Positions 6,811 to 25,944 of a stretch of 64,000 nt of DNA are shown one piece after another. The notes beneath the pieces are model-generated. The model was not told the DNA's origin. It was given only the letters and a program-made list of their open reading frames with translations, and made no database searches. Origin of the DNA: Bacillus sp. AFS037270. Lineage in GTDB: Bacteria > Bacillota > Bacilli > Bacillales_B > DSM-18226. Location: positions 12,545 to 76,544 of the forward strand of contig NZ_NUNF01000005.1 in the NCBI RefSeq assembly GCF_002585305.1, written 5' to 3'. The translations under genes were made by a program, and so were the position numbers. Positions within the stretch are counted from its first letter, which is position 1. Every line of letters begins with the position of its first letter.

Positions 6811-6845
6811 AAAAATACCCGCCTGCCATAAATGGCAACCGGGTA
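6811..6845 (-). terminator. Orphan terminator, probably the ancestral sufB operon terminator
   Basis: A hairpin with arms TACCCG-CCTGCCAT and ATGGCAA-CCGGGTA is followed on the minus strand by TTTTTTAT. No gene now ends just upstream except the 13-codon sufB-like remnant at 6859-6900. Its place after that remnant suggests it once ended the suf operon before the island inserted. Confidence 0.75.
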
Positions 6846-6858
6846 AATTTATAATATA

Positions 6859-6900
6859 TTATCCAATAGAGCCTTCCATCTCAAACTTGATTAATTTTGC
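6859..6900 (-). pseudogene. Duplicated sufB 3' end (13 codons plus stop); candidate attL
   Basis: Read on the minus strand, this encodes [17 protein letters not shown]. The intact sufB at 24547 ends [17 protein letters not shown]. Over the shared [11 protein letters not shown] codons and stop the DNA differs at six third positions or synonymous sites (Leu, Ile, Phe, Glu, and two Gly codons), with no amino-acid change. Longest identical runs are CCAATAGA and CCTTCCAT. This is the pattern left when an element integrates into a gene's 3' end and supplies its own version of that end. It lies on the far side of the island from sufB. Confidence 0.75.
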
Positions 6901-6994
6901 TTAAAACAGCGTGAAATGATATATATATATAAGCGGCTGAAGCTTAATATAAAGCAAATTTTTTAAATAACTTAAAATACAAAATAAATTCATT

Positions 6995-7012
6995 TCGGCA
7001 CAAAATCGGCAC
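6995..7012. repeat. TCGGCAC direct repeats (candidate integrase arm sites, left)
   Basis: Two copies of TCGGCAC at 6995-7001 and 7006-7012, with starts 11 bp apart. The heptamer recurs at 24477-24483 next to the integrase end, and AAATCGGCAC is shared by both borders. Tyrosine recombinases of integrative elements use such short arm-type repeats flanking the core. Confidence 0.45.
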
Positions 7013-7128
7013 GGTTCGAGCAAGTACTGATGCCACATAAACAAGGATTTTCCAGGGTTTCAAATGCAAATATCATCCCTTATGTAAGGATGAATAATGG
7101 TATTTCTTTCGGATAATGTAAGTAATGT

Positions 7129-8541
7129 TTATTCCAAAGTAAAAGAAGCGAGACTCGCGTTACCGATCCCCGTATAAGTAAAATACAATACCTGTATGCC
7201 GTCCGGAATGGTAATATCAGCGGAATATTCTGTCCATATGTTCGTAAACCCAACAGGTATTTTTCCGAGGGCCGGCCCGTTCCATGATGTTTTGACTTCA
7301 AAAGTTCCATTGGCATACCCACGCACCTTGATTTTGACTTTTCGAATACCGTCGCATTGGAAATATTTAAAACCGGCTGTAGCAGAATCCCTCATATTAG
7401 CAATGTATCCGATTTCTTCATCCCCATCTTTTCCATCCTGTGTAATCTTCGGAAATCGTCCGTCCATCCATGCCCCGAGAGAACCCGAATACAATTCCTC
7501 ATCCTTACAGAATAGATTGCATGCCACATAAGCTGGATATTCTCCGCGACCCGCTAGTGGTCCTCCATTGGACCCGCAGGATGTCATCTCTACTTGGGGT
7601 ATTGTGCCATCTTCCCTAAATTCAATCGGTTCAACACAGCCCTGTCGGCTGAAAACTGTTCCGTTGGTATGCCTGTGATAAAAGATGTACCATTTCCCAT
7701 TAATTTCAACAATACTGCCGTGGTTATTGTAACCATAATACATAGGCTTGTCCGCTGGTTTGTAAGTATCGATATGAAGATCGGCATTGCTTACGATGAC
7801 TCCCTGGTAGACAAAGCCTTCTGTCGGATGTTTGCTAGTCGCATAGCAAAGCTCATGCATGACGATAGAGGAGTAGATAAAATAATAAGTATCTCCTTTT
7901 TTCCTAATGGACGGCGCTTCAAAAAACTCATGTCCTTCGTACCCGCTGCCTTTGCTGTAGGGCTCACTTGGTGCAATAAAAACTGGTTCTTCCATAATTG
8001 TAAGCATATCCGGACCAATTACCGTCGCCATGGCACCCTTTCTTGATTTGTCACCAGCTGCACAAAAGCCAGTGTACAAATAGGTTGTGTCGCCTTCGGT
8101 CAAGACCCCTGGGTCGAATTGAGGCTGGTCGCCCTCTTTTTCCCCCAAGCGTGTTCCATCTGAATAATGCACATAACCGTAAAATTCGTAACGGCCCGCC
8201 GGCGAATCACAGACGGCTACCGACACAACGGGGACTTTGTCAAGCACATAATAGAGATAATACCGACCATCTGAACCTACTGTGACATCTGGTGCATAAA
8301 GACACATTCTGCCATCAGGATTGAGTGGATCATCTGTTTTTTTGTAAATGACACCTTCATACCGCCAATCACCTAAATTATCCACTGGTGCAGACCAGCA
8401 CACATAATCGTTTATGCAAAAGACATGCCCGTTAAAACGATCATGAGAGCCATACACATACACTCTATCATTAAAAACATATGGTTCTCCATCAGGAATA
8501 TATTCCCACGATGGAAGATACGGATTGAATCCTTGCTTCAT
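7129..8541 (-). CDS. Glycoside hydrolase family 43 (arabinofuranosidase / beta-xylosidase type)
   Basis: A 470-aa intracellular GH43 enzyme (no signal peptide). The N-terminal five-bladed propeller shows NPYLPSWEYIPDGEPYVF, with the likely catalytic-base Asp in IPDGEP, then YAPDVTVG and GHEFFEAPS with a likely acid Glu. The last ~110 residues look like a CBM6-type beta-sandwich. It probably trims arabinose or xylose from imported oligosaccharides; exact specificity is not readable. I start at the ATG at 8541, preferred over the GTG at 8547 on spacing to AAGGAG. It follows abfA by 75 bp and is likely co-transcribed. Confidence 0.85.
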   Translation of the reverse strand: MKQGFNPYLPSWEYIPDGEPYVFNDRVYVYGSHDRFNGHVFCINDYVCWSAPVDNLGDWRYEGVIYKKTDDPLNPDGRMCLYAPDVTVGSDGRYYLYYVLDKVPVVSVAVCDSPAGRYEFYGYVHYSDGTRLGEKEGDQPQFDPGVLTEGDTTYLYTGFCAAGDKSRKGAMATVIGPDMLTIMEEPVFIAPSEPYSKGSGYEGHEFFEAPSIRKKGDTYYFIYSSIVMHELCYATSKHPTEGFVYQGVIVSNADLHIDTYKPADKPMYYGYNNHGSIVEINGKWYIFYHRHTNGTVFSRQGCVEPIEFREDGTIPQVEMTSCGSNGGPLAGRGEYPAYVACNLFCKDEELYSGSLGAWMDGRFPKITQDGKDGDEEIGYIANMRDSATAGFKYFQCDGIRKVKIKVRGYANGTFEVKTSWNGPALGKIPVGFTNIWTEYSADITIPDGIQVLYFTYTGIGNASLASFTLE

Positions 8542-8616
8542 CCTCACTCCACTCCTTGTATCTTAATAAATAGGTTACTTTAACAGCAAATAAAAAATAT
8601 GGAAATTGATTCAAAA

Positions 8617-10457
<1,841 letters not shown>

Positions 10458-11252
10458 ATGACAAATATTTACTATGTAGAAACTGAGGCTACACACACAA
10501 ATAGTTTTGTTTTTGATATTCCTAAAGGTCATGACTGCTGGCTTCTTGTCGTTACTCACACTCCTGCTCTTTTCTGGGTCAATGGAAAAATAAAGGAATA
10601 TCCTAAGCACAGTGCGATATTATATCAACCACATCAGAAAATTTACTATCGGGCTTGTGCTGAAAAGTATGTAAATGATTGGATACGTTTTGATACAAAT
10701 GAACCTTTTGTTACCGAATCAGTGCTTCCACGTGGTTTACCTTTTTCAATAGCCGATCCGGAATATTGCCACAAGTTATTTCAGTTACTTGTTACAGAGC
10801 ACTCTTTTAATAAAGATTTTAGAGAATGCTCAACGGACTATTTGTTAAGAATTCTATTTAATAAACTTTTGGAATCCTACTTCCAGACTGAGATTACCCC
10901 ACAATATTACAACCTTATAAATCTTCGTACAGAAATTTACCATAACCCTGGTAATAATTGGACGGTTTCTAAAATGTCAGAATATTTGCACCTTAGTCCC
11001 GGCTATTTGCAGGCACTCTATAAAAATACCTTTGGTATCTCCTGCATGGATGACGTAATTATCAGCCGAATTCGGCTAGCCAAAGAATATCTGATGCATG
11101 GTTCCTATACAATTGCTGAAGTCGCATTTCGCTGTGGTTATAACAATGTAGAGCACTTTTGCCGACAATTCAAACAAAAGACAGGATATACTCCGGGTAG
11201 CTATCGGAACAATGTTGTCAATTCATACAGTGAAAAGGAGTCAATCCTTTGA
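10458..11252 (+). CDS. AraC/XylS family transcriptional regulator
   Basis: A 264-aa one-component regulator. The N-terminal half is a cupin-like sugar-sensing domain (FDIPKGHDCWLLVVTHTPA). The C-terminal ~100 residues carry two helix-turn-helix motifs: WTVSKMSEYLHLSPGYLQALYK and YTIAEVAFRCGYNNVEHFCR. It is flanked by arabinose- and xylose-releasing enzymes and probably activates them in response to an imported sugar. Start at the ATG at 10458, preceded by AAGGAGGG. A strong terminator follows. Confidence 0.9.
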   Translation: MTNIYYVETEATHTNSFVFDIPKGHDCWLLVVTHTPALFWVNGKIKEYPKHSAILYQPHQKIYYRACAEKYVNDWIRFDTNEPFVTESVLPRGLPFSIADPEYCHKLFQLLVTEHSFNKDFRECSTDYLLRILFNKLLESYFQTEITPQYYNLINLRTEIYHNPGNNWTVSKMSEYLHLSPGYLQALYKNTFGISCMDDVIISRIRLAKEYLMHGSYTIAEVAFRCGYNNVEHFCRQFKQKTGYTPGSYRNNVVNSYSEKESIL

Positions 11253-11276
11253 TATTGTAGAAAGAATCAAACAACT

Positions 11277-11307
11277 TGATTGATCCAAGGTTTACTTGGA
11301 TCAATCA
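11277..11307. terminator. Bidirectional terminator, AraC-type gene / GH43 pseudogene
   Basis: A 13-bp perfect stem (TGATTGATCCAAG / CTTGGATCAATCA) with a 5-base loop sits between convergent genes. The T-tracts are weak on both strands, so efficiency is uncertain. Confidence 0.7.
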
Positions 11308-11315
11308 GTTATATA

Positions 11316-12844
<1,529 letters not shown>

Positions 12845-12869
12845 CTAGTAACCACCATATATGAATCGA

Positions 12870-13754
12870 TCATCCCTTAAGTCCTGACATCGTAATCCCT
12901 TGAACAAAGTATCTTTGTCCTATGAAGAAAAGTATGAGTAAGGGAATTACCGTTATTAAAGAAACGGCCATAAGCATCTGAACTTGTGAAGAACCGTATG
13001 AATTCTGAAAAAACTGTAAACCAAGTGCGAGCGTAAAATGTTTGTCACTATTTAAATAAATTAGTGGTGTCATAAAGTCATTCCAATGAAAAGCAACTGA
13101 CATAACTGCAACTGACATCAAAGCTGGTTTTATTATAGGTAACAGAATTTTATAGTAAATTTGAAATGTATTTGCACCATCGATTTTAGCAGCCTGATCT
13201 AGCTCTGCTGGTATTGTCTTAAAAAATTGTCTCAGAAGAAAAATATTAAACGCCCCGCCGCCAAAAAATGAGGGTACTATAAGAGGCTTTAATGTATCTA
13301 GCCAACCTAGTTTTGAAAATAAAATATATGTTGGAATTAAAAGAACCTGATTAGGCAGCATCATTGTTCCAAGCACGATTGCAAAAAGGATGTTACTGTA
13401 GCGTGATTTGAACCTTGCAAAGCCATATGCAACTAAAGATGCTGAGAATACTGCTCCTAAAGTTGCTAAAACAGTTACTATAATCGTATTCCATGTGTAC
13501 CTTGTAAAATCGGCATACTGCCATCCCTGAATAAAATTATCCAATGTGAATGTTTTTGGTATTAATTTCGGAGGTATTGTATATGCCTCAGAAGGTACTT
13601 TAAAAGCAGTAGAAATCATCCATAAAAATGGAAAAATAAATACTAAAGCTAATATGATCAAAATAATATAACTTATAGTAAGATTAATTGTTTCAACCTT
13701 TCTTTTATTCTTATAATTCAATGTCGTTTCTTTTATTGCCACATTTGCCTGCAT
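12870..13754 (-). CDS. Sugar ABC transporter permease (MalG/AraQ type)
   Basis: A 294-aa inner component of a CUT1-type sugar importer. Six membrane helices are visible. The cytoplasmic EAA loop that contacts the ATPase reads AAKIDGANTFQIYYKILLPI (about residues 195-214). A GGAGG site precedes the ATG. It lies 17 bp after its partner permease and is followed by the GH43 pseudogene. Context suggests xylo- or arabino-oligosaccharides as substrate; that is inference. Confidence 0.92.
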   Translation of the reverse strand: MQANVAIKETTLNYKNKRKVETINLTISYIILIILALVFIFPFLWMISTAFKVPSEAYTIPPKLIPKTFTLDNFIQGWQYADFTRYTWNTIIVTVLATLGAVFSASLVAYGFARFKSRYSNILFAIVLGTMMLPNQVLLIPTYILFSKLGWLDTLKPLIVPSFFGGGAFNIFLLRQFFKTIPAELDQAAKIDGANTFQIYYKILLPIIKPALMSVAVMSVAFHWNDFMTPLIYLNSDKHFTLALGLQFFQNSYGSSQVQMLMAVSLITVIPLLILFFIGQRYFVQGITMSGLKG

Positions 13755-13771
13755 TTTTCCGCCTCCAAAAA

Positions 13772-14668
13772 TTAATTCTCGTAGTATACCCAGTATTTAG
13801 AAGTACGGTTTACAATTAAAGTTATAATCAGGATTATAATAAATAAGATCCACGCTAATGTTGAAGCATACCCCATCTCACCATATTTGAATGCACTGTT
13901 ATATATATGCATCATATAGGTATAGGTAGCATAGTTAGGGCCACCTTCTGTTAAAACAAAAGGCTGCATGAAAACTTGAAAGCCACCTATTATTCCCATT
14001 ACTAGATTAAAAAATAATGTTGGTGTTGACAGAGGAAGAGTAATATGAGTGATCATTATAAGGCGACTCGCACCATCTATTGAAGCACTTTCATATAATT
14101 GTTCCGGTATATCCTGTAACCCAGCAAGTGTTATGATAATAGAGTTGCCAATCGTCCATAACCCCATAATGATAATCGCCGGCATCGCCCATTTACCATC
14201 ACTTAGCCAATTCGGACCATTTATTCCAAAAAATGAAAGAACATAGTTTATGAGACCGAATTGTGCGTTAAAAATCCATCCCCACAATAATGTAACAGCA
14301 ACACCTGCAGTTATATACGGTATATAAAAAGTGGTTCTGAATATTCCCATTCCTTTTATTTTTTTGTGATTTAGTAAGAGAGCAACCAAAAATGAAAGTA
14401 TTAAACTTAATGGGACAGAAACTATTACAAAATATAAGGTATTGCATAGAGATTTATAGAAAAGAGGATCTTGGGTAAAAGCTTTTTTTATATTGGCTAA
14501 GCCTATAAAATCACCTGTTCCAGTCATATCAGCATTTGTAAAGATCAGCATAATGGAATAAACTACTGGATATAATGTAAATATTATAAAACCCAAAATA
14601 AATGGTGATGTATACAAATAAAATTGCCTAGCTTCCCTTTTTTCACTGCTAATATACTTCTTTTTCAT
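13772..14668 (-). CDS. Sugar ABC transporter permease (MalF/AraP type)
   Basis: A 298-aa partner permease. Six hydrophobic helices are visible, with an EAA-type loop ESASIDGASRLIMITHITLP around residue 200. The frame is open from a TTG at 14683, but GAGGGGTG sits correctly for the ATG at 14668, which I choose. It lies between the binding protein and the MalG-type gene. No ATPase gene is present in the cluster, so a shared ATPase such as MsmX elsewhere is probably used. Confidence 0.92.
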   Translation of the reverse strand: MKKKYISSEKREARQFYLYTSPFILGFIIFTLYPVVYSIMLIFTNADMTGTGDFIGLANIKKAFTQDPLFYKSLCNTLYFVIVSVPLSLILSFLVALLLNHKKIKGMGIFRTTFYIPYITAGVAVTLLWGWIFNAQFGLINYVLSFFGINGPNWLSDGKWAMPAIIIMGLWTIGNSIIITLAGLQDIPEQLYESASIDGASRLIMITHITLPLSTPTLFFNLVMGIIGGFQVFMQPFVLTEGGPNYATYTYMMHIYNSAFKYGEMGYASTLAWILFIIILIITLIVNRTSKYWVYYEN

Positions 14669-14749
14669 TTTTTCACCCCTCAAGAGAAGAATTTACAAAG
14701 GGAGGATCTGTCCTTTATGTCTTCCTCCCATTGATTTAAATTACTTACA

Positions 14750-16051
14750 CTATTTACTTTGCTTTTGATGAACTTCGTCAAGTGCAGCTTGTATTTGTGG
14801 AGCATATTTTTTCACAGCGTCTTTAGCCGAACTTTGCTGAGTTGTAATTTGTTGATATATTTGTTCGAATAAGTCTGCAGCTTTATTAAGGGATCCACCC
14901 CAAGGATTCGTAGTTGCATCCGCCAATCCAGTAAGATAGTCAGTCTGTTTTAAATCCGTGTTTGGAATAGTCAGTTTACTGAAAGTGGTGTCAGCAGATT
15001 CCTTCAATGCTGGAATTCCTACTTTGGCGTAGATATCATTTACTTCTTTATTCATAGAAATTGTCTTTATGTACGCCCATGCAGCCTTCTTGTTCTTTGA
15101 TGCCTTATTCATACCAAAACCTGTTTGAAATTTAATATTCGTATTTTTTCCATTTGGATCATTAGGAGGCAAAACTATACCCCATTTAAAGTTATTCCCT
15201 ATTTTTTGGGCTATGTCTTTAGCCTCAAACAATCCTAATGGGTACATGGCCGCTTTTCCTGATACAAACATCTGGTCCATAGGTATACTTTTAGAAGCAG
15301 AATCATCAGGTAACGCTTTTGATTTTATGAGGTCACTAAACAACTCTAACCCTTTTATTGTTTTTGGATCATCTACGGTCTGTTTGGTCCAATCACTGTT
15401 ATATGGACTGCCGCCATATGGGAAAGATGCAAAACTATGATTAATCCAATGTGAAACAATAGCATAGTTCCTTTTAGCTCCAGAACCTGAAGAAACTTTC
15501 TTTGAAATATTCTTAAAATCATCCCAAGTCCAATCATTCGTAGGATATGGAACTCCGGCTTTGTCGAAAATTTCTTTATTGTAAGCAAACATGAAATCTG
15601 ATTGAGTTGTTGGCATTCCTTCCCGTTTTCCATCCGGATCTACATACCCATCATCTGCCCCCGGGGTAAAATCTGCAACATCGATTTTATCCTTTTCTAA
15701 ATATGGATTCAAATCTTCTAACCATTTTGAACGAAGACCTTTCCAGTCAGGAGACATCATAATAACATCAGCAGCATTCCCTGCTGCCAGTGCCGCATCA
15801 AGCTTCTGATCAACACTATCTGCTGGAAGCCATATTTCATTAACTTTCACATCAGGATACAATTTTTCAAATACTTTTGTAGCTTGTTTTCTGGCCTGGA
15901 GTTCTTCTCCGCCACCCCACCCCATAATAGTGAGTTCGCCAGAAATCGTTTTCCCATCGCTTTTGCTGCTAGACTGACTACTATTGCTTCCACAAGCAGT
16001 GAGAGACAGTGCTAATGCCCCAGCTAACACTGATGTTAAAAGTTTTTTCAT
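14750..16051 (-). CDS. Sugar ABC transporter solute-binding lipoprotein
   Basis: A 433-aa extracellular binding protein of the CUT1 class. The signal peptide ends in the lipobox LSLTAC, so it is lipid-anchored to the outer face of the membrane. The early ITIMGWGG-like strand (LTIMGWGGGEELQARK) is typical. I choose the ATG at 16051, after GGGGAG, over an in-frame ATG at 16081. It is first gene of the importer operon, with a likely CcpA site about 70 bp upstream. Confidence 0.92.
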   Translation of the reverse strand: MKKLLTSVLAGALALSLTACGSNSSQSSSKSDGKTISGELTIMGWGGGEELQARKQATKVFEKLYPDVKVNEIWLPADSVDQKLDAALAAGNAADVIMMSPDWKGLRSKWLEDLNPYLEKDKIDVADFTPGADDGYVDPDGKREGMPTTQSDFMFAYNKEIFDKAGVPYPTNDWTWDDFKNISKKVSSGSGAKRNYAIVSHWINHSFASFPYGGSPYNSDWTKQTVDDPKTIKGLELFSDLIKSKALPDDSASKSIPMDQMFVSGKAAMYPLGLFEAKDIAQKIGNNFKWGIVLPPNDPNGKNTNIKFQTGFGMNKASKNKKAAWAYIKTISMNKEVNDIYAKVGIPALKESADTTFSKLTIPNTDLKQTDYLTGLADATTNPWGGSLNKAADLFEQIYQQITTQQSSAKDAVKKYAPQIQAALDEVHQKQSK

Positions 16052-16120
16052 ACATTTTTCTCCCCTTTTTATTTTTTTCAAAAAATCTAAGACTTACAAT
16101 TCTCATATCACCCCTTTTAT

Positions 16121-16134
16121 TGAAATCGTTTTCA
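16121..16134. promoter_or_regulatory. Catabolite-responsive element (cre)
   Basis: TGAAATCGTTTTCA fits the Bacillus CcpA consensus TGWAANCGNTNWCA on both strands. It lies 70 bp upstream of the sugar-binding-protein start, where CcpA could repress the importer when glucose is present. Confidence 0.65.
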
Positions 16135-16429
16135 ACTTTCCCCTGCTTTTTTGTTACAACTGTTCAATGGAAACTATTTCTTTTGATCAACTCTGATGTC
16201 TGCAAAAGTTTTTGTAACTAAAGCGTTTCCAACTTATTTAATAGAATAATAATATAATTATTCCCTCCATGCATTGACATTTTCATATAAATAATTGATA
16301 TATTCTAAGGTTCTGCTGTTAAAGAAAGATTAAAAGGGAAATTACTTCCTCAACCCTTGCATTGATTAGACTTTGTGTTGCATCCTCTAAATGTTATTAG
16401 AATAAAAATAATATTTTTTAAAAAAATAA

Positions 16430-16452
16430 ACCCAAAGAACAGATCTTTGGGT
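16430..16452 (-). terminator. Terminator of the DUF624 gene
   Basis: The stem ACCCAAAGA / TCTTTGGGT with a 5-base loop is followed on the minus strand by TTTATTTTTTT. It separates the DUF624 gene from the importer operon. Confidence 0.85.
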
Positions 16453-16477
16453 CAGTTTCTAACTATATTTCAAATTA

Positions 16478-17110
16478 TTAAGCACTAAACTTCTTTTGTT
16501 TTTTTTCAATACGCTTAAAAGCTATTGTCGAACCAAACATCATCACAATGGACATAAGACTCACCGAAAAAAATGGAATAAATCCTGGGAAAACGGATAA
16601 CGGAAAACTTAATAATAGAAGCACTGCTACCATCAAAATAGTAATGTGTATATTAAGAGTCCCGATATAAAACGCGTATTTGAAATATTGAAAAAACCTT
16701 AATTCAAAATGTACGTAAACAGGAAAAAGATATAGCAGGGTGATCAAATACAAACCAATAAGGATTAATAAAAGAATGGACAGAATGTATTGAACGGTTC
16801 CCCCTATTGCCATAACGAGCCTATAATCAATAAATAGGAAAAAGCCGATTGCTCCCATTAGTAGTCCCACTAAATTTGCATGAAGGAACTCCTTTTTATA
16901 GGTATTAAAAAAGATTCGAGAAATGGGGATATCCGTTTCTTTCATGTTCCACTTTCTTACCACTGTAAATAACGCCACAGTTGCGGGGATTATCCCAAGA
17001 ACTATGAATCCGGTTAATGTAAAAAGAATCCATAAGATATTTACCAAAGCCATCTTCCAAATCCAATCACATACAGTGAAGAGTCCCCCCATCACTCTGC
17101 CCATTGGCAT
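16478..17110 (-). CDS. DUF624 (YesL-like) membrane protein
   Basis: A 210-aa protein with about five hydrophobic helices. Members of this family are commonly found beside sugar ABC importers in Firmicutes; their role is unknown. The N-terminal CDWIWKMALVNILWI is family-like. The ATG at 17110 follows AGAGGTGAT. Its own terminator and a 426-bp gap to the binding-protein gene suggest independent transcription. Confidence 0.82.
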   Translation of the reverse strand: MPMGRVMGGLFTVCDWIWKMALVNILWILFTLTGFIVLGIIPATVALFTVVRKWNMKETDIPISRIFFNTYKKEFLHANLVGLLMGAIGFFLFIDYRLVMAIGGTVQYILSILLLILIGLYLITLLYLFPVYVHFELRFFQYFKYAFYIGTLNIHITILMVAVLLLLSFPLSVFPGFIPFFSVSLMSIVMMFGSTIAFKRIEKKQKKFSA

Positions 17111-17761
17111 ATGGTATCACCTCTTTAACAATTTTTTATTTATATGTTTGAAATAATCAGCTATTCAATAGAAACCTGACAGCTATTCTTACTATTCATT
17201 CAGTTAGTCTGAAACTACCGGGACTGATTTCTTACTTTCTTCTACCACAAAATACAGGGAAAATTTTAGAATCGTTTTCACTTTAGTGACTACTGGTCTA
17301 TAAACGCATTTCGTCAAAAATACTCTTAGAAGAATTCCAGATTTTTCAATGTAAACAATTTCTATCCTCTTATCTTAATAAATTCCGCAGCTATCGTAAT
17401 TGCAGTGTATCGAAATCTTTAATCAATTTCCTTCGCTTTGAGGCTTTTGCTTACAATTCTTTTTAATTCCGTTATTTCCGAACGAAGTATTGACGGAACT
17501 ACCTAATCTTTAACAATACCTGCCGTACCAATACCCTTCAGAAAATCTTTTTCACCCAAAAACCTCCTTCTAACCGAATGATAAAACTTGTAGATTATTA
17601 TAGCATTACATTTAATGTTTGTATAACCAACAAACTAAGTTTCTTATGATTCTATTCTCTCTGATGTCCCCTTATTTCCGTTAATCAGAAAAATATCATA
17701 CCCATCTCTGGATTTAGTGGATACTGGTTTTTGAGACATTTTTATTTTGGAGGATTTGACA
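17111..17761. other. Long AT-rich intergenic region with remnants
   Basis: No intact gene is visible. It holds a xylO-like operator (17614-17638). On the minus strand there is a strong ribosome site (AAGGAGG, about 17560-17566) followed by a TTG-initiated 18-codon frame (LGEKDFLKGIGTAGIVKD, stop near 17500). After two further stops, in-frame text continues (VVPSILRSEITELKRIV). I read the latter as a decayed gene start that I cannot identify. Confidence 0.5.
17614..17638. promoter_or_regulatory. XylR-type operator (xylO-like)
   Basis: The right half AACAAACTAA is identical to the Bacillus xylO half-site. The left half keeps GTTTGT at the expected spacing (5-base centre). A TATAAT-like box lies just downstream on the minus strand. 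No xylR or xylAB is nearby, so it may be a relic of a lost xylose operon or serve a regulator elsewhere. Confidence 0.45.
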
Positions 17762-17860
17762 ATGAAATTAGGATATGCACGAGTTTCCAAGTTGGAGCAA
17801 AATTTGAACCTTCAATTAGATGCCTTGAATAAAGCTGGTGTTGAGGAGATTTTCCGATGA
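17762..17860 (+). pseudogene. Serine resolvase/invertase, 5' fragment
   Basis: Translates to MKLGYARVSKLEQNLNLQLD then ALNKAGVEEIFR-stop: the N-terminal start of a Tn3-type resolvase/DNA invertase, including the catalytic serine in ARVS. TTGGAGG precedes the ATG. Only 32 of about 185-200 residues remain; the following bases show no continuation in another frame. Confidence 0.8.
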
Positions 17861-17937
17861 CCAGTATTATATTTATCTTGCTGAAAATGTAAGCGAATTT
17901 GATACTGAAACCAACATTTTTGACTAAATAAACAGAT

Positions 17938-17981
17938 AAAGGTGCTCTCGTTGTTTATATACAAACAACGAGAGCACCTTT
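17938..17981. terminator. Perfect 19-bp hairpin
   Basis: AAAGGTGCTCTCGTTGTTT and its exact complement flank a 6-base loop. This is the longest perfect stem noted in the window. It could be a bidirectional terminator or part of a lost mobile element, as it sits between resolvase and IS3 fragments. Confidence 0.7.
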
Positions 17982-18118
17982 GGCATAATTATGAACTGAT
18001 TTTTTAATTTTAGATAACATCCGCAATCCTTCCTGAACTCAAATGACAATACTTAAGAAGACCCTGGCTCAATCGTTAAAAAAGAAGAGGGCGTTAATTA
18101 ATAAGTCTATGAATTGGT

Positions 18119-18152
18119 TGACTGGATTAAGGTCATTATCAGTATTGACAAT
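18119..18152. repeat. Short repeat shared with 23187
   Basis: TGACTGGATTAAGGTCA (18119-18135) is identical to 23187-23203, and similarity continues for about 15 more bases. Both copies lie in decayed mobile-element surroundings on either side of the germinant-receptor operon. Confidence 0.6.
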
Positions 18153-18175
18153 TCCAATTGAGGAAACTTATTTTC

Positions 18176-18345
18176 ATGGTAGAGTATCTTACAAATCCTA
18201 TTGTAGTGGAAAAAGTAAATAATTTCATCAATTATTACAATCAAGTTCGACTTCAGGCAAAATTAAACTACCTGTCCCCTATTGAATATAGGGAACAGGT
18301 AGCTTAGGTGTTTTTTCTGTTGTCTCAAGTGAGTAGGTCAGTTCA
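18176..18345 (+). pseudogene. IS3-family transposase 3' remnant with IS end
   Basis: The in-frame text ends FINYYNQVRLQAKLNYLSPI-EYREQVA-stop (stop at 18305-18307), the standard C-terminus of IS3-family OrfB integrases. It is followed by TGTTGTCTCAAGTGAGT and GGTCAGTTCA, which resembles the usual right end of such elements. Upstream the frame is broken and the DDE core is absent, so the copy is dead. Confidence 0.8.
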
Positions 18346-18499
18346 CCAAAACCTAATTAGTTTTTTTATTTTATGAAAATACTAACAACTATGGATTGAA
18401 ACTTCATACGTTGGCAAAATAAGTCTTATGGTGATTACACTGCTTACGCTAAATAAATAAACTAAGGTTAATTCTTAAAAAAACAGTTGGTGAGAAGAT

Positions 18500-20011
18500 A
18501 TGCCTTTTAAGAACTCAAAACGGATAGATATTAATAAAAATAAAACTGAGATTAAGTCTATTCAAGACGTTTATCAGCAGGCAAAAAAGTCAAGTGATTT
18601 TTTTCAATTTTCCCCCCTTAAGCGGGAGGATTACCTACTTATCAGTTATTACAAGTCTATGGTAGATGCAAAAGCGATAAATGAGCTTTTGCTTCCAGTA
18701 ATAAAGGAGAACTGTAAAAAAGTTAAGTCACTCCAAGAATTGGAACAATTAATCCCCTTTGAAGAGGTTAATCTTTCAGAAGACCCCAACGACATTGAAA
18801 ACAAGCTAATTAAAGGCTTTGTCACTGTTCAATTTAGAGATCTTAAAGAGTTACTTGTTATAAATATTCAAAATGAGGAACTTGGATATAGAAAAAATAA
18901 TGAAACCGAGAATGAATTTAGTGTTATAGGCCCCAAAGTTGGGTTTATAGAAAACATCAATGTTAATATCCATTTATTAAGGAAAAAAATTGCTGTTCCG
19001 GAATTAGTTTTTGAAGAAATGAAACTGGGCTCTCTATCTAAAACAGAAATAGCGATTGCCTATATCGAGGGGGTAACAAACCCGCAGTATATCCAAACGG
19101 TCAGACAACGATTAAAGGATATTGACTTTGATGTCATCTTTGACAGTTCACAAATTGAACAGATTTTTTCGGATAACTCTAACACTCCATTTCCGATATT
19201 TTTATCAACTGAGAGAATGGATCGAGTCGTTTATGCCATGATATCAGGGCAAGTTGCTATATTTGCTAACGGTTCACCCTATATCGTGACAGGACCGTCT
19301 ACTTTATTGGATTTTTTTATCTCTCCAGAAGATTATTTTCTGTCTTGGATATTAGGTTCATTTTTTAGGATTATAAGAATTTTTGGGGTTATTTTTTCCA
19401 TGTTTTCTACTTCGTTATATATAGCCATACTGACCTTTCACTATGAGGTAATACCAGAAGATTTACTTCAACCTTTAATAAGCTCGAGGGCACATGTTCC
19501 GTTTCCTCCTGTATTGGAAGCCATATTCCTGGAAATAACCATTGAGCTATTACGTGAGGCAGGAGCCAGGCTTCCAACGAAGATTGGACAGACGTTAGGG
19601 ATAGTAGGGGGAATTGTGATTGGACAAGCTTCTGTTGAAGCAGCTTTAACCAGTAATATCTTGCTGATTATTGTCTCTTTATCTGCCCTTGCTTCCTTTA
19701 CCACTCCCATTTTTAAGATGTCTAATGCTATCCGTCTTCTGAGGTTCCCATTTATTATTTTAGCTGCTTTATTAGGCGGATTTGGTATAGCGATTGGATT
19801 TGTTCTTCTTCTTAGTCACCTATTAAAATTAACGTCATTAGGGAACCCCTATATGGTTCCTCTTTATCCTTTTAGAATAAATAGCTTTAGAGATAGTTTT
19901 ATTCGATCATCATACAAGTACACAACAAAACGAAGCCGGTTTTTAAGACCGCTTTCTCTTATCAGATATAAACCTCAAGAAAATAAGGATGATTCTAATG
20001 AATGGGCCTAA
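18500..20011 (+). CDS. Spore germinant receptor subunit A (GerAA/GerKA family)
   Basis: A 503-aa GerA-family A subunit. It has a large N-terminal soluble region and about five membrane helices from about residue 290, followed by a basic C-terminal tail (about residues 455-503). Recognisable text includes AIAYIEGVTNPQYI, SGQVAIFANGSPY, EDYFLSW and the conserved REAGARLPTKIGQTLGIVGG. It resides in the spore inner membrane and helps sense nutrient germinants; the germinant is not predictable. It overlaps the C-subunit gene by 14 bp, starting the A-C-B operon. Confidence 0.93.
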   Translation: MPFKNSKRIDINKNKTEIKSIQDVYQQAKKSSDFFQFSPLKREDYLLISYYKSMVDAKAINELLLPVIKENCKKVKSLQELEQLIPFEEVNLSEDPNDIENKLIKGFVTVQFRDLKELLVINIQNEELGYRKNNETENEFSVIGPKVGFIENINVNIHLLRKKIAVPELVFEEMKLGSLSKTEIAIAYIEGVTNPQYIQTVRQRLKDIDFDVIFDSSQIEQIFSDNSNTPFPIFLSTERMDRVVYAMISGQVAIFANGSPYIVTGPSTLLDFFISPEDYFLSWILGSFFRIIRIFGVIFSMFSTSLYIAILTFHYEVIPEDLLQPLISSRAHVPFPPVLEAIFLEITIELLREAGARLPTKIGQTLGIVGGIVIGQASVEAALTSNILLIIVSLSALASFTTPIFKMSNAIRLLRFPFIILAALLGGFGIAIGFVLLLSHLLKLTSLGNPYMVPLYPFRINSFRDSFIRSSYKYTTKRSRFLRPLSLIRYKPQENKDDSNEWA

Positions 20012-21098
20012 GTTGAAATTTAGCATTACTTTCTTAGCTGTTTTATTAACTTTGACTGCCTGTAATAATCCTAATAATAAGACAATTAATGATATCCAAA
20101 TTCCTTCCGTTTTAGGATTAGATAAAGGAAAGGATAAGTATATTGGAACCATTCTTTATACTGACTATACAAAAGAAGAGGAGAAGGGAGAAACTACAAT
20201 CTTAAAGGGGAAGGGATTGAATACAAGGACAATCCTGCAAGAGATGGATGAGCAGTCTTCAAAGCCAGTTGAACTTGGAAAGTTGAGTTTATTGTTATTT
20301 GGCAAAGAATTAGCCGAAGACGGGATCGCTTATTTTGTAAAGACTATTTGTAGAGACCCTTTAGTAGGAAGCAATATGTATTTGGCTGTCTCCGAGGGAC
20401 AATCAGGTGAGTTATTAAAGAACAATAAAAGTAACAGTAGTGACCATATCGTCCGCTTAATTGAGCATCGATATGAGAAGGATGATTTACCTCTTCCGAA
20501 TATGCATAGTTTTTTATTTGATTATTATGGTGAAGGAAGAGATAATGCCATACCACTCTTAAAAGTAAACTCCGCGGGTAAAATAACCATTGGAGGATTA
20601 GCGGTATTTAAAAACGATAAACTAATAACAACACTCGATGAAAAAGAGACGTTCTTATATAAATTACTAAGAGGAGAAACGATAAGAGGAGATAGTGTAT
20701 TTAACGTTAAGAATGAAGATAGAAAAGGAACAGCTGTCTTTACAGTTTTATATGGGGAAAATAGAAAAAGATTCATAAAAAATCATTCGGTACCAAAGAT
20801 TCACTTTTATATGGAGTTACAAGGTATGGTGAAGGATTATCCTACTTGGTTGGACCTAAGGGAAGTTTCCCCAAAATATATGTTAAAAAAACAACTAGAA
20901 GAACAAGTAGAAAAAGAATGTAAAAAGCTTCTTCATAAACTGACTGCCAATAAAGTAGATCCACTTGGTATAGGTGATTTGGTAAGAGCAAAATCTAGAG
21001 ATTGGGATGAAAAAGAATTTTATGAAAATATCTATCCGAATGTTCAATATGATATGGACCTAAATATCGAATTAACACGGGCAGGTATTGGGGAGTAA
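19998..21098 (+). CDS. Spore germinant receptor subunit C lipoprotein (GerAC family)
   Basis: A Ger(x)C-family lipoprotein of 366 aa, exported and anchored through the lipobox LTAC near residue 20. It contributes to the receptor on the outer face of the spore inner membrane. The frame is open from an ATG at 19989, but AAGGATG is better spaced for the ATG at 19998. It overlaps the A-subunit gene by 14 bp, and the B-subunit gene follows 11 bp later. Family-like segments include GLNTRTILQEM and LLLFGKELAEDGI. Confidence 0.9.
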   Translation: MNGPKLKFSITFLAVLLTLTACNNPNNKTINDIQIPSVLGLDKGKDKYIGTILYTDYTKEEEKGETTILKGKGLNTRTILQEMDEQSSKPVELGKLSLLLFGKELAEDGIAYFVKTICRDPLVGSNMYLAVSEGQSGELLKNNKSNSSDHIVRLIEHRYEKDDLPLPNMHSFLFDYYGEGRDNAIPLLKVNSAGKITIGGLAVFKNDKLITTLDEKETFLYKLLRGETIRGDSVFNVKNEDRKGTAVFTVLYGENRKRFIKNHSVPKIHFYMELQGMVKDYPTWLDLREVSPKYMLKKQLEEQVEKECKKLLHKLTANKVDPLGIGDLVRAKSRDWDEKEFYENIYPNVQYDMDLNIELTRAGIGE

Positions 21099-21109
21099 GG
21101 TGGAGGATT

Positions 21110-22219
21110 ATGGGCAAAGAATTAAAGGAAAGTTTAACGGTCTCTCCCTTTTTTTTATTTTTTCTTATCCATGGGGCACAAACGGGTGTAGGTTTACTTG
21201 GATTTCAAAAAGAGATATTCAAGGGTGCGGAACAAGATGCATGGGTCTCTATCCTTTTGGTGGGAGCGGCCTTTCATATAATTGGAGTGTTAATGTATTT
21301 TTTATTAAAGCATGCCAGAAACGGGGATATCATGTCGCTGCACAAGGAATTGTTCGGCAGATGGATGGGGAATATTTTAAATCTTCTTCTATATAGTTAC
21401 TGTATATTAATCGTATCGATTGTGATCAGGTCTTATTTAGAAGTGTTAATGACATGGGTATTTCCAAGTACTCCTTTATGGATTTTTTCTTTCATTCTCT
21501 TAATTGTCATTGTCAATATTGTTAAAGGTGGTTTTCGCGTAATTACAGGAATTTGCTTTTGGGGAGTCATCCTACCAAGTTTTTTATTCTTTTCAGTGTA
21601 TTATCTTATTAAGTACGCTCATTGGTCAAACTTATTACCGCTGTTCAATCATGGGATCCATGATTATTTTGTTTCCGCTAAAGGTAGTATGCTAAGTTTT
21701 GTTGGACCGGAATTCCTGCTTATTTACTATCCTTATATTAAAAATAACTTACATTCTCAAAAGTGGTTTCACTTTGGAATGGGCTACACTACCTTGTTAT
21801 ATTTTCTAGTAGCCATTTTTACATTTGTTTACTTTAGCCATGGGCAGCTTTTACATACGGTGTGGCCAACGTTAATTATGTCCAAAATTATTCGTTTCCC
21901 GTTTATTGAAAGGTTTGAATATGTGTATATTTTTACTTGGGTTTTGGTCTTTTTACCTACATGCTGTATAGCCGTTTGGGGGGGAGTACGCATACTAAAA
22001 GAATCGATTGGAATGAAGCCGGATATAACCTTGTGGGTTTCAGTCATCCTTATTCAAATGATTGTTACACTCTGCAAGGATACGATCGATGTCAACAAAG
22101 TGGAGTCCATAACCATTTTATTTAGTTCTATTTTTCTTTTTACCTATTTACCTGTATTAAGTATTTGGGTTTTTATAAAGAACAAAATGAAAAATACTAA
22201 TAAAGAGATCGTTAAATAA
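21110..22219 (+). CDS. Spore germinant receptor subunit B (GerAB family)
   Basis: A 369-aa integral membrane protein of the GerAB group, related to amino-acid permeases, with about ten helices. In the GerA system the B subunit forms the germinant-binding site. The N-terminal FFLFFLIHGAQTGVGLLGFQ matches the family pattern. GGTGGAGGATT precedes the ATG. It completes a self-contained A-C-B operon. No terminator is obvious before the truncated SDR at 22278. Confidence 0.9.
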   Translation: MGKELKESLTVSPFFLFFLIHGAQTGVGLLGFQKEIFKGAEQDAWVSILLVGAAFHIIGVLMYFLLKHARNGDIMSLHKELFGRWMGNILNLLLYSYCILIVSIVIRSYLEVLMTWVFPSTPLWIFSFILLIVIVNIVKGGFRVITGICFWGVILPSFLFFSVYYLIKYAHWSNLLPLFNHGIHDYFVSAKGSMLSFVGPEFLLIYYPYIKNNLHSQKWFHFGMGYTTLLYFLVAIFTFVYFSHGQLLHTVWPTLIMSKIIRFPFIERFEYVYIFTWVLVFLPTCCIAVWGGVRILKESIGMKPDITLWVSVILIQMIVTLCKDTIDVNKVESITILFSSIFLFTYLPVLSIWVFIKNKMKNTNKEIVK

Positions 22220-22277
22220 ATTTCGAAATAAACGTTCCGAAATTCTCGTATTATCCTTCAGTTTATTTGAATCAAAG

Positions 22278-22724
22278 ATGTATGACGAATTTACAATGGA
22301 AGAGTTTGACAGAATGGTGGCTGTAAATGTACGTTCCGTTTTTGAGGGTGTTCAAGCAGCTGCACCACGAATGAGTGAGGGTGACAGAATAATTACAATC
22401 GGAAGTGCTAATGCCAATGTAACAGGTTTTCCAGGCTTGAGTCTTTATGCCATGTCGAAAGCAGCTGTAGCAGGTATGACTAGAGGATTAGCAAGGGACC
22501 TTGCCTTAAAAAGAATAACTGTTAACAATATACAGCCTGGACCTGTTGACACTGATATGAATCCAGCAGATGGTTCTAATGCAAAATTACTAAGAGAAAT
22601 TATCGCTATAGGAAGATACGGTAAAGCTACTGAAATAGCAGATCTAGTTGCCTTTTTATCTTCAGAACAAGCAAGTTATATAACTGGTGCTTCCATCGAT
22701 ATAAATGGCGGTTTTATGATATGA
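22278..22724 (+). pseudogene. Short-chain dehydrogenase, 5'-truncated
   Basis: 148 residues of an SDR (usual length about 245). The C-terminal two thirds are present: NVRSVFEG, catalytic Ser in IITIGSANANVTG, YAMSK (Tyr and Lys), QPGPVDTDMNP and the terminal ITGASIDINGGF. The N-terminal nucleotide-binding GxxxGIG segment is absent and not found upstream in other frames. No ribosome site precedes it. Probably a non-functional remnant; I cannot name a substrate. Confidence 0.75.
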
Positions 22725-23368
22725 TTTCTTAAATATCTATTTCGGAAGGTGTTTTTTCAAAATCTTTAACATTTTATTTTAAATAGTAACTATTGATGTT
22801 ATTACAATTCTTCCTATATCTCAATAACTTAAAAATGAGGATTTTGGAAGAAATAGCGATTGTTAATAGAATAATTATAGATTATCAACCATATGAAGAG
22901 GAGTTTCTTGAACTGCTTTCAAAGATAGAATATTTAATCAAAAGGGCTATTACGATAATTAAAAACAAACCAACTTTCGTTTACGTTTAGGAACAAAAGT
23001 GTGGAAACAGAAAATGAGCGTAAAGCAATAAAGTATTACGAGGTTTCTGATACCGAGTTAATGGGGGACACTACTTATAAACCCTTAGCGATTGGACAGA
23101 ATATATCTAATACTAAAAAACTTGCTGAGAATTACCTCTGTGGTAGAGAAAATTTTTGAGATGAATTGAAGAAGCATCCAAAGGCATGACTGGATTAAGG
23201 TCAGTATTAGTATTGTCGTTCTTACCCATTTTCATTCTTTGTGGTGCAGCTCTGCTGCATGAGTGGCTAAAGGGATCGTTACTTGACGTTCCCTTTTTTT
23301 GTACCAAAAAGCAAAAATAAAAAGCGTTATCGAAATCGTTTTAAAGGATTGAAAGGAGATAAGGGAAG
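22725..23368. other. Decayed AT-rich region without a supported gene
   Basis: Short open frames exist (for example a 65-aa frame at 22793 without a ribosome site). A + strand stretch ending at about 23160 reads like protein (RKAIKYYEVSDTELMGDTTY) but has no start. The repeat TGACTGGATTAAGGTCA is at 23187-23203. I recognise none of it; the region looks like debris next to the integrase. Confidence 0.45.
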
Positions 23369-24470
23369 ATGGCAACATTTAGAAAGTTACCAAGTGGAAA
23401 TGGCAGGCACGTGTTTCATATGATGGTAAAGAAAGCAGCATTGGAACATTTCGCACGAAAAAGGAAGCTGAAATTGAAGCTGCTAAAGTTGAAGAACGGA
23501 TTTACTATGGTCAAACATTAAATGATAGAAACATGCTGTTTGATGATGCAGTGAAGGATTGGCTTGAACATAAGAAAGCAAATGTAAAGGAATCAACATT
23601 TGTGCAGCTTGAAGTAATTATTAGAAATCACGTTTTACCCACATTTGGGCATAAAAAAATCATGACAATTCATAGACCTGAAATAAAAAGATGGATTGCT
23701 AAATTTGGTTCAAGGTTAAAATATCTTTCAGTAATAAAAAGCATTTTTCATTATGCTGTTCATGAACTTGAAGTACTTGAAAAAAATCCGGCTGATAAAT
23801 TAAAGGTTCCTGTTCAAGATAGTGTTGCTATTAAAAAGGAAAAAGTAAAATATTTCAGCCTTCAGGAATTAAATCAATTATTGGATTTCATGAAAACATA
23901 TAAGCATCAACGCTTTCCTGAATATCAGCTTTATTACATGTTAATGTCCTTTTTAAGCAAAACCGGTTTAAGAATATCTGAAGCTTTAGCTTTAAGATGG
24001 GAAGATATTGATAGAGATAAGATAACCATCGATAAACAAACTAGCCGTGATGATAACAATAAAGTGAAATTAACAACATTAAAAAATACTGCTTCTTATC
24101 GTACAATAAAAATTGAACAAGAATTAGTACGTGAATTAAAGAAATTCAAGCTAAAGCAAAATGAATTAATTTTAGGAAATCCAAGATTTCGCCAAAATGA
24201 AGATGGTATTATTTTTCAAAATTATAACGGTCATTATCTCACACCTTCTATTATTCGTGAAACAATGCAGCCATATCATAAACAAGCCAGTGTTGAATAT
24301 AAAGGCACACACACGCTGTCCTGCTACTTGAATCAGGTACAAGTCTGAAATGTGTATCTAATCGTTTAGGACATAAAACCATCAAAACAACGGCTGATAC
24401 TTATCTTGATATCACCGAAAAAATAGAAGAAGACGAACTTCAAAAGTTCGCCTCCTACACTCAAAGATAA
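23369..24470 (+). pseudogene. Tyrosine site-specific integrase, disrupted twice
   Basis: The ATG at 23369 follows AAGGAG. The first codons read MATFRKLPSG, then the frame is lost around 23398-23401 (one base short). The next frame gives WQARVSYDGKESSIGTFRTK and continues through the SAM-like and catalytic domains (SKTGLRISEALALRWEDI, first catalytic Arg). At 24303-24314 the expected THTFRHTHA collapses to THT within ACACACAC, shifting frame and deleting the HxxR box. The last part (HAVLLLESG, SNRLGHKTIKTTADTYLDI with the catalytic Tyr) is in another frame to the stop at 24470. It ends 76 bp from sufB and is the likely recombinase of this island. Confidence 0.9.
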
Positions 24471-24476
24471 ATCAAA

Positions 24477-24483
24477 TCGGCAC
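24477..24483. repeat. TCGGCAC repeat (candidate integrase arm site, right)
   Basis: A single TCGGCAC just after the integrase stop, within AAATCGGCAC, shared with the left border at 6995-7012. A weaker CCGGCA follows. Confidence 0.4.
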
Positions 24484-24514
24484 GCCGGCAATTTTACCTT
24501 TTATAAAAATCGTC

Positions 24515-24541
24515 AAAACCCTTGCCCCACAAGGGTTTTTT
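24515..24541. terminator. Bidirectional terminator between integrase and sufB
   Basis: The stem AAAACCCTTG / CAAGGGTTTT with a 5-base loop has T-tracts on both sides. It is the present terminator of the suf operon and lies on the island side of the inferred crossover, so it was probably supplied by the element. Confidence 0.85.
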
Positions 24542-24546
24542 CAATA

Positions 24547-25944
24547 TTAACCAATAGAACCTTCCATTTCGAACTTAATCAGACGGTTCATCTCAACGGC
24601 ATATTCCATTGGTAATTCTTTTGTAAACGGCTCAATAAAGCCCATTACGATCATTTCAGTTGCTTCTTGCTGAGAAATTCCGCGGCTCATCAAGTAGAAT
24701 AACTGCTCTTCAGAAACCTTCGAAACCTTCGCTTCGTGCTCAAGAGATATATTGTCGTTTAGAATTTCATTGTATGGGATCGTATCAGATGTTGATTGAT
24801 TATCCATAATCAATGTATCACACTCAATATTCGCACGAGCTCCATCTGCTTTGCGTCCAAAATGAACAACACCACGATATGTTACTTTACCACCATGTTT
24901 AGAAATGGATTTAGATACAATCGTTGAGGAAGTATTTGGTGCTAAATGGATCATTTTTGCACCCGCATCCTGGTGCTGACCTTTACCTGCAATCGCAATC
25001 GATAATGTCATACCACGTGCGCCTTCACCTTTTAAAATAACCGCAGGATATTTCATGGTTAACTTAGAACCGATATTACCATCAATCCATTCCATTGTTG
25101 CGTTCGCTTCACAAACCGCACGCTTGGTAACAAGGTTAAACACATTGTTTGCCCAGTTTTGGATCGTTGTATAACGGCAATAAGCATCCTTTTTAATGAT
25201 GATTTCTACAACCGCACTGTGAAGAGAGTTAGTTGTATAAACTGGTGCTGTACATCCTTCTACATAGTGTACAGATGAACCTTCATCAACAATAATAAGA
25301 GTACGTTCAAATTGACCCATGTTCTCAGAGTTGATTCGGAAGTATGCCTGTAATGGCGTATCTACCTTAATACCTGGTGGTACATAGATGAATGAACCGC
25401 CAGACCAAACCGCTGAGTTTAACGCTGCGAATTTATTATCCGTTGGCGGAATTACTTTTGCCCAGTGTTCACGGAAAATGTCTTCGTTTTCTCTTAAGGC
25501 AGAGTCTGTATCCTTAAAGACTATTCCTAGCTCTTCAAGGTCTTCCTTCATGTTATGATAAACAACCTCTGATTCGTACTGCGCAGATACACCAGCAAGG
25601 TATTTTTGCTCTGCTTCAGGGATACCAAGCTTATCGAAAGTAGCTTTAATTTCCTCTGGTACTTCATCCCAAGACTTCTCGGATTTTTCAGATGGTTTTA
25701 CATAGTACGTAATTTCATCAAAGCTTAAAGAATTCAAATCTCCGCCCCACTGTGGCATAGGCATATTGTAGAAATGCTCAAGAGACTTTAAACGGAAGTC
25801 AAGCATCCACTGTGGTTCATTTTTCATTTTTGAAATTTCTTCAACAATCTCACGTGTTAACCCACGTTTCGATCGGAAAATGGAAACGTCTTTATCGGCA
25901 AAACCGTATTTATAATCCCCGATTTCAGGCATCTTTTTTGCCAT
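24547..25944 (-). CDS. sufB: Fe-S cluster scaffold protein SufB
   Basis: A 465-aa core subunit of the SufBCD scaffold on which [4Fe-4S] clusters are built in the cytoplasm. The length and the C-terminal [20 protein letters not shown] are standard. It is the last gene of sufCDSUB, as in other Bacillus. Its 3' end serves as the inferred island insertion site: the final 13 codons have a diverged duplicate at 6859. The protein end is intact, so the function should be preserved. Confidence 0.97.

Follow-up and report, generated by a model that had tools for sequence, protein, structure and literature searches.

An integrative island at the 3′ end of sufB in a Bacillus genome, and the sufB-specific integrase clade of Bacillaceae

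We analysed a 64,000-nucleotide (nt) stretch of DNA from Bacillus sp. AFS037270 (contig NZ_NUNF01000005.1), here called the window, whose positions serve as coordinates throughout. Beside sufB, an important iron-sulfur gene, it very probably holds an integrative genomic island, inserted at the 3′ end of that gene through a tyrosine integrase and an attachment site carried by the element (attP), and now immobile. Both ends of the island can be recognized, a relative has the site empty, a second species shares the island boundary, integrases of this clade sit beside sufB, and the window's own integrase gene is broken. A first-pass annotation of this DNA had proposed a 17.7 kb island, a site-specific mechanism and a rebuilt sufB end, all of which are strongly supported below. 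New here are the sufB-specific integrase clade and its island family in Bacillaceae, of which the window copy is decayed; we infer that its ancestor was a phage-satellite-like element. The features at the two ends are as follows.

24547-25944, minus strand: intact sufB (Pfam SUFBD_core)
24560-24567, minus strand: ATGGAAGG, the inferred crossover block on the integrase side, longest block identical between both ends in seven pairs
24471-24546, no strand assigned: element arm between integrase and sufB, with a TCGGCAC repeat at 24477 and a terminator-like repeat (alignments with occupied sites)
23369-24470, plus strand: tyrosine integrase pseudogene with two frameshifts (Pfam; tblastn against the intact integrase of Bacillus sp. 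ISL-18)
6995-7012, plus strand: TCGGCAC twice in direct repeat, at 104 and 115 bases inward from the displaced end
6892-6915, minus strand: far-side element arm, matching the same arm in other displaced ends
6872-6879, minus strand: ATGGAAGG, the inferred crossover block on the displaced side (same pair comparison)
6859-6894, minus strand: displaced copy of the sufB end (sequence read directly; random-sequence test)
6811-6858, minus strand: original downstream terminator of sufB, now adjoining yunF, homologous to DNA past the sufB stop in Neobacillus drentensis JC05

The reverse complement of 6859-6900 codes for the C-terminal end of SufB and its stop codon, on the same strand as intact sufB. 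The last 36 bases of the two ends are identical at 29 positions and all seven differences are synonymous, as the first-pass annotation had noticed. In 100 random sequences of 64 kb, drawn from a first-order Markov model trained on the window, matches reached 25 of 36 at most; within the window itself, the second-best position scores 22 of 36. A copy this short and diverged might have arisen by chance, or by plain duplication of the sufB end without any integration, yet such an origin is highly improbable: the random-sequence test rules out chance, and the copy runs on one side into the native sufB terminator and on the other into an arm shared with other elements.

The displaced copy is a mosaic of element DNA on its 5′ side and host DNA on its 3′ side. 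Of the 24 bases at 6892-6915, 15-22 match in all but one of 12 other displaced ends, 9 in the exception (L149) and only 4 in native sufB; the 5′ side as a whole (about 6880-6915) is element DNA common to other elements, and the 3′ side with the terminator (6811-6871) is the former host sufB end. The first-pass annotation had suggested looking for an empty site in a relative, and N. drentensis JC05 (L001) provides one, with sufB, 333 bases and then yunF, a homologous flank and no island. DNA past its sufB stop matches the DNA beyond the window's displaced copy and not that beyond intact sufB; hence it is the copy at 6859 that retains the host's original sufB end and its terminator. On the integrase side, the arm at 24515-24546 is common to the occupied sites L005, L079 and L080 and not to this empty site, and the whole of 24471-24546 falls inside longer alignments with L083 and L084. 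The last codons of intact sufB, from about 24567 down, would then have been supplied by the element. The island is bounded at both ends by an attachment-site (att) repeat, with its target gene rebuilt.

We compared intact and displaced ends in seven pairs: the window, ISL-18, USDA818B3_A, 7884-1, B. dakarensis, the N. cucumis tandem and Pseudalkalibacillus decolorationis. ATGGAAGG is identical within all seven, and every other such block is 3 bases or shorter; the crossover most likely took place inside it, in the Met-Glu-Gly codons. The TCGGCAC repeats at 6995-7012 and 24477-24483 lie 102-115 bases inside both island ends, and all three copies in the island are within 115 bases of an end and in the same orientation. 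Of 13 loci tested, five (the window, L082, L083, L084 and L149) have such repeats close to an end and eight do not; the repeats are possible integrase arm sites.

In the mechanism that we propose, the tyrosine integrase would join the element's attP to the final codons of sufB by recombination, with the crossover most likely in ATGGAAGG. The attP would carry a synonymous imitation of the sufB end together with a terminator. Integration would leave a functional sufB, completed from the integrase side, and would shift the former host end, together with its terminator, by 17.7 kb to a place beside yunF. The ancestral replication and packaging genes would have been lost, and genes for arabinan use and spore germination gained or kept.

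The integrase pseudogene carries Phage_integrase and Phage_int_SAM_3 domains (Pfam), and its main piece is 67% identical to the intact ISL-18 integrase (tblastn). The pseudogene is convergent with sufB and ends near 24470, which leaves 76 bases to the sufB stop; an integrase gene thus adjoins one att end, in agreement with the first-pass annotation. One frameshift lies near the N-terminus and the second in the C-terminal part, just before an RHTHA segment. With two frameshifts the integrase is not intact, and the island is decayed and can no longer be mobilized by an enzyme of its own.

We used the intact ISL-18 integrase to query 193 genomes of the family and 397 of the order (E up to 1e-60) and scored no more than the top 9 or 4 candidates in each, respectively, so that weaker integrases may have escaped notice. 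Among the family genomes, 11 have a match, and all 11 matches are convergent beside sufB. The order search also gave 11 genomes, one of them ISL-18 again; nine of the other ten show sufB in the locus, and in the tenth the integrase is split by about 2.8 kb, with its C-terminal piece beside sufB (L140 2739-6830). This larger stretch resolved the partial locus L119, which had seemed an exception to the tropism. In both searches together, integrase homologues sit beside sufB in 21 of the 21 genomes with a match, bearing out the expectation that other integrases would be found next to sufB 3′ ends. Intact frames are present in ISL-18 (72% identical) and B. dakarensis (71% identical). More distant integrases, at 24-37% identity, are mostly elsewhere than sufB. 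The integrases of G223 and ISL-18 are 98% identical while the SufB of G223 is 92% identical to that of the window, a contrast that we read as a sign of recent movement.

Thirteen of the 21 sufB integrase loci were examined at length (10 newly fetched, plus L079, L083 and L084). Two copies of the sufB end, 4-17 kb apart, are present in 10 of them; L146, L148 and L150 have no second copy within 20 kb. The ISL-18 and B. dakarensis elements are 15-16 kb long and hold satellite-type genes, including helix-turn-helix (HTH) regulators and a primase. At least 7 of the 13 loci contain a primase (six, one of them fragmented, plus L145), in a scan that excluded the large open reading frame (ORF) of L144. 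A small terminase (TerS) is present in L079, L141 and L143, and a ClpP-like head protease in L084, L144 and L145. Cargo includes a type III restriction-modification system in ISL-18 (L079 11739-16732; the restriction subunit is the weaker match), a type I restriction-modification system in L145 (8187-14499), and an MrcB_N/HNH protein with a Schlafen-type helicase in L143. By gene content, the sister elements resemble phage satellites, several being satellite-like. The window island has the integrase and both arms in common with them. No primase or replication module was found among the 15 island ORFs scanned with Pfam, and no packaging-related gene among the window ORFs scanned; since these other modules were not found, we regard the island as a decayed relative of these elements rather than as one of them.

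Two further observations concern individual sister loci. The 7884-1 element (L083 6988-10788) encodes a large subtilase/IetS-like protein (PADLOC E 6e-39), and in L141, DNA from 17753, after the displaced copy, looks by eye like an integrase tail, which suggests a further tandem.

The ancestor may instead have been a prophage of about 40 kb with a window-type integrase, whose phage genes were lost and whose cargo was left. Of ten IMG/VR contigs whose integrases are 62-67% identical, six are 36-45 kb long, and one of the six, L049, has sufB next to the integrase. The 3 of 13 loci without a second sufB-end copy within 20 kb (L146, L148 and L150) would also fit, as would a 37 kb Sporosarcina prophage near suf with TCGGCAC in its terminal repeats (PMC11919988). 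This prophage origin is possible but doubtful, because the ISL-18 (72%) and B. dakarensis (71%) integrases sit in 15-16 kb satellite-type elements, and the 15 island ORFs contain no phage structural gene in a scan with Pfam (PHROGs was not run on the window). A sufB-end copy occurs in only 2 of the 10 viral contigs, L049 and L052; seven of the other eight show none because the sequence examined does not extend past the integrase gene. The copy in L052 lies beside the integrase without preceding sufB coding sequence and looks as a free attP would. None of the 2035 phage records with a match reaches 60% identity to the ISL-18 integrase.

The integrative island at sufB can be followed further in relatives. 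A search for yunF gave 48 loci, and sufB was placed for 45 of them (37 within the locus and 8 by whole-genome search; L012, L044 and L046 were left out). The sufB end lies within 1 kb of yunF in 28 of the 45 and further off in 17. Eight of these 17 occupied loci have a second copy of the sufB end (L002, L005, L018, L023, L043, L004, L026 and L031); L004 has its sole second copy between two elements, and those of L026 and L031 have no stop codon. In the Peribacillus relatives L025, L026 and L031, a sufB-end copy near 9795 survives as a relic without its stop codon and is probably the trace of an old insertion.

N. cucumis DSM 101566 (L082) shares the island boundary. Its arabinan part aligns to the window at 91-93%, and the alignment begins in the displaced sufB end, two bases past the stop codon. 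To the left lies not the native flank but the integrase tail of another element (8170-8373: a second element's integrase tail and a sufB-end copy directly before the arabinan island), and therefore two elements stand in tandem. Divergence at fourfold sites between the window and N. cucumis is 0.09-0.22 in seven island genes, as against 0.50-0.56 in yunD-F, 0.36 in sufB and 0.49 in sufS (328 residues); sufC and sufD lay outside the stretches compared. As judged from these divergences, horizontal transfer would best explain the similarity of the islands, and the pattern expected of horizontal acquisition is seen in all genes compared except sufU. The arabinan cluster has other genomic homes besides sufB: close copies of its genes lie away from sufB in four genomes, diverging from the window by 0.14-0.38, and ISL-18 has the full cluster away from the sufB end in a different gene order. 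The idea that the arabinan genes are ancestral at sufB is not supported, with close GH43 homologues in four other genomes lying in 18-19 kb stretches without a sufB end.

Several observations weigh against an integrative island of this kind. The comparisons were made with other species and not with genomes of the window's own species. Nine of the 17 occupied loci (L003, L019, L021, L039, L041, L042, L045, L047 and L048) have no second sufB-end copy, and we did not count them as support. The window's paired ends share only two identical 8-base runs, which is short for an att core; we explain this by wobble differences and decay. The fourfold divergence of sufU is 0.17 (58 sites), as low as that of the island genes, and divergence is likewise small in the close arabinan copies located elsewhere than at sufB; low divergence alone is therefore no proof of transfer by this element. 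The guanine-plus-cytosine (GC) content of 0.32-0.37 across 10-24 kb, compared with 0.36-0.42 in the flanks, speaks for the island, but at about 7-10 kb the island has flank-like GC. The integrase is the only satellite-type gene that the scan of window ORFs revealed, and we saw the germination half at no other sufB site.

The first-pass annotation had taken sufB for an attachment gene not yet described. By contrast, the literature reports it as an insertion site in Staphylococcus, Latilactobacillus and Lactococcus, with a case near suf in Sporosarcina. In S. aureus, the sufB 3′ end is the main integration site of Sa1int prophages (PMC11217367; further sources, PMC6036120 and PMC11769447). Prophages are also reported in sufB in S. 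argenteus (PMC11117363), beside sufB in S. pseudintermedius, with SpT152-like integrases (PMC8297860), and in Lactococcus (PMC3757294; sufB insertion also PMC6365430), and in sufB in L. sakei (PMC9641780; the group is named again in PMC10688831). Sa1int and SpT152 phages differ from the window island in being full phages. SpT152 has an IEMEGSIG-stop imitation about 67 bases past its integrase gene, whereas the integrase itself is only 25% identical to that of ISL-18 and is thus a distant and not a close relative; the same site has therefore been adopted by distant integrases. In L. sakei, the attL and attR of TMW 1.1290 P1 and TMW 1.46 P2 read as the same codons and share TGGAAGG, with few-base differences within each pair (PMC9641780); host and phage are different from those considered here. 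Sporosarcina is the nearest host to the window among these published insertions: phiA38H3 of Sporosarcina sp. ANT_H38 is integrated near or within the suf cluster and has a terminal direct repeat with two TCGGCAC units, but it is a 37 kb prophage, likened to the window by its published description only (PMC11919988).

Phage-inducible chromosomal islands (PICIs) offer a further comparison. The 4-17 kb sister elements jointly hold an integrase, HTH regulators, a D5- or VapE-type primase, a small terminase or head protease and restriction-modification cargo, and PICIs are described as using housekeeping genes, such as the end of fis, and as occurring in tandem copies (PMC10111431). Unlike these, the window yielded only the dead integrase of that set, and its cargo consists of catabolic and germination genes. 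Islands are also reported between dnaX and sufB in Enterococcus cecorum (PMC10117131) and, in Staphylococcus chromogenes, in a region with listed neighbours that include a TauE/SafE exporter and SufB (PMC12724294); their cargo differs, and the likeness drawn here is one of location. Our partial literature search found no description of a Neobacillus or Bacillus sufB island, and TIGER/Islander may already hold such islands.

On these comparisons we lean slightly towards seeing the sufB end as a Bacillaceae hotspot for one integrase clade of small satellite-like islands that trade defence systems, and here plant-sugar and germination genes, with distant phage integrases of other Firmicutes having converged on the same Met-Glu-Gly block because it leaves little codon freedom. 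The locus is a clear and well-delimited case of the end of an important housekeeping gene serving as an insertion site, in which empty, occupied, tandem and decayed states can be compared. A second copy of the sufB end between sufB and yunF is a simple marker for such islands in Bacillaceae. The case as a whole suggests that genes for carbohydrate use and germination may move from one soil species to another on elements like this one. The genes between the two sufB ends of the window, identified with Pfam, are as follows.

7129-8547, minus strand: GH43 family glycosidase
8617-10134, minus strand: alpha-L-arabinofuranosidase
10359-11252, plus strand: AraC-type regulator
11316-12584, minus strand: GH43 glycosidase with a GH43_C2 domain
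12870-16081, minus strand: sugar ABC transporter, two permeases and a binding protein
16478-17110, minus strand: DUF624 protein
18500-22219, plus strand: GerA-type spore germination receptor operon of three genes (GerA, Spore_GerAC, Spore_permease)
22278-22724, plus strand: short-chain dehydrogenase, N-terminally truncated (match starts at profile position 91 of 236)

The GH43 glycosidase at 7129-8547 is 97% identical at the amino acid level to its N. cucumis DSM 101566 counterpart at the same site; no counterpart of that at 11316-12584 was found in the N. cucumis island. Between the arabinan and germination halves, at 17763-18346, lie a fragment that looks like the beginning of a serine resolvase and the remnant of an IS3-type transposase (both named by eye).

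The two halves may have arrived separately, the arabinan element first and the germination operon later by transposition or through a resolvase, a history that is compatible with integration at sufB. N. cucumis has the arabinan part and lacks the germination part, and the resolvase-like fragment and IS3-type remnant lie between the halves, together with a change in the sign of the GC skew. The N. cucumis element keeps only its integrase tail, however, and deletion would explain the absence equally well; we consider the case for two events evenly balanced.

The transposase remnant is 83.5% identical to L048, and the match of window positions 18181-18346 in that locus, considered as possible island cargo, was rejected as this transposase-like remnant (by eye). 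The first gene of the germination operon has its best relatives at only 74-75% identity, in 3 of the 193 family genomes.

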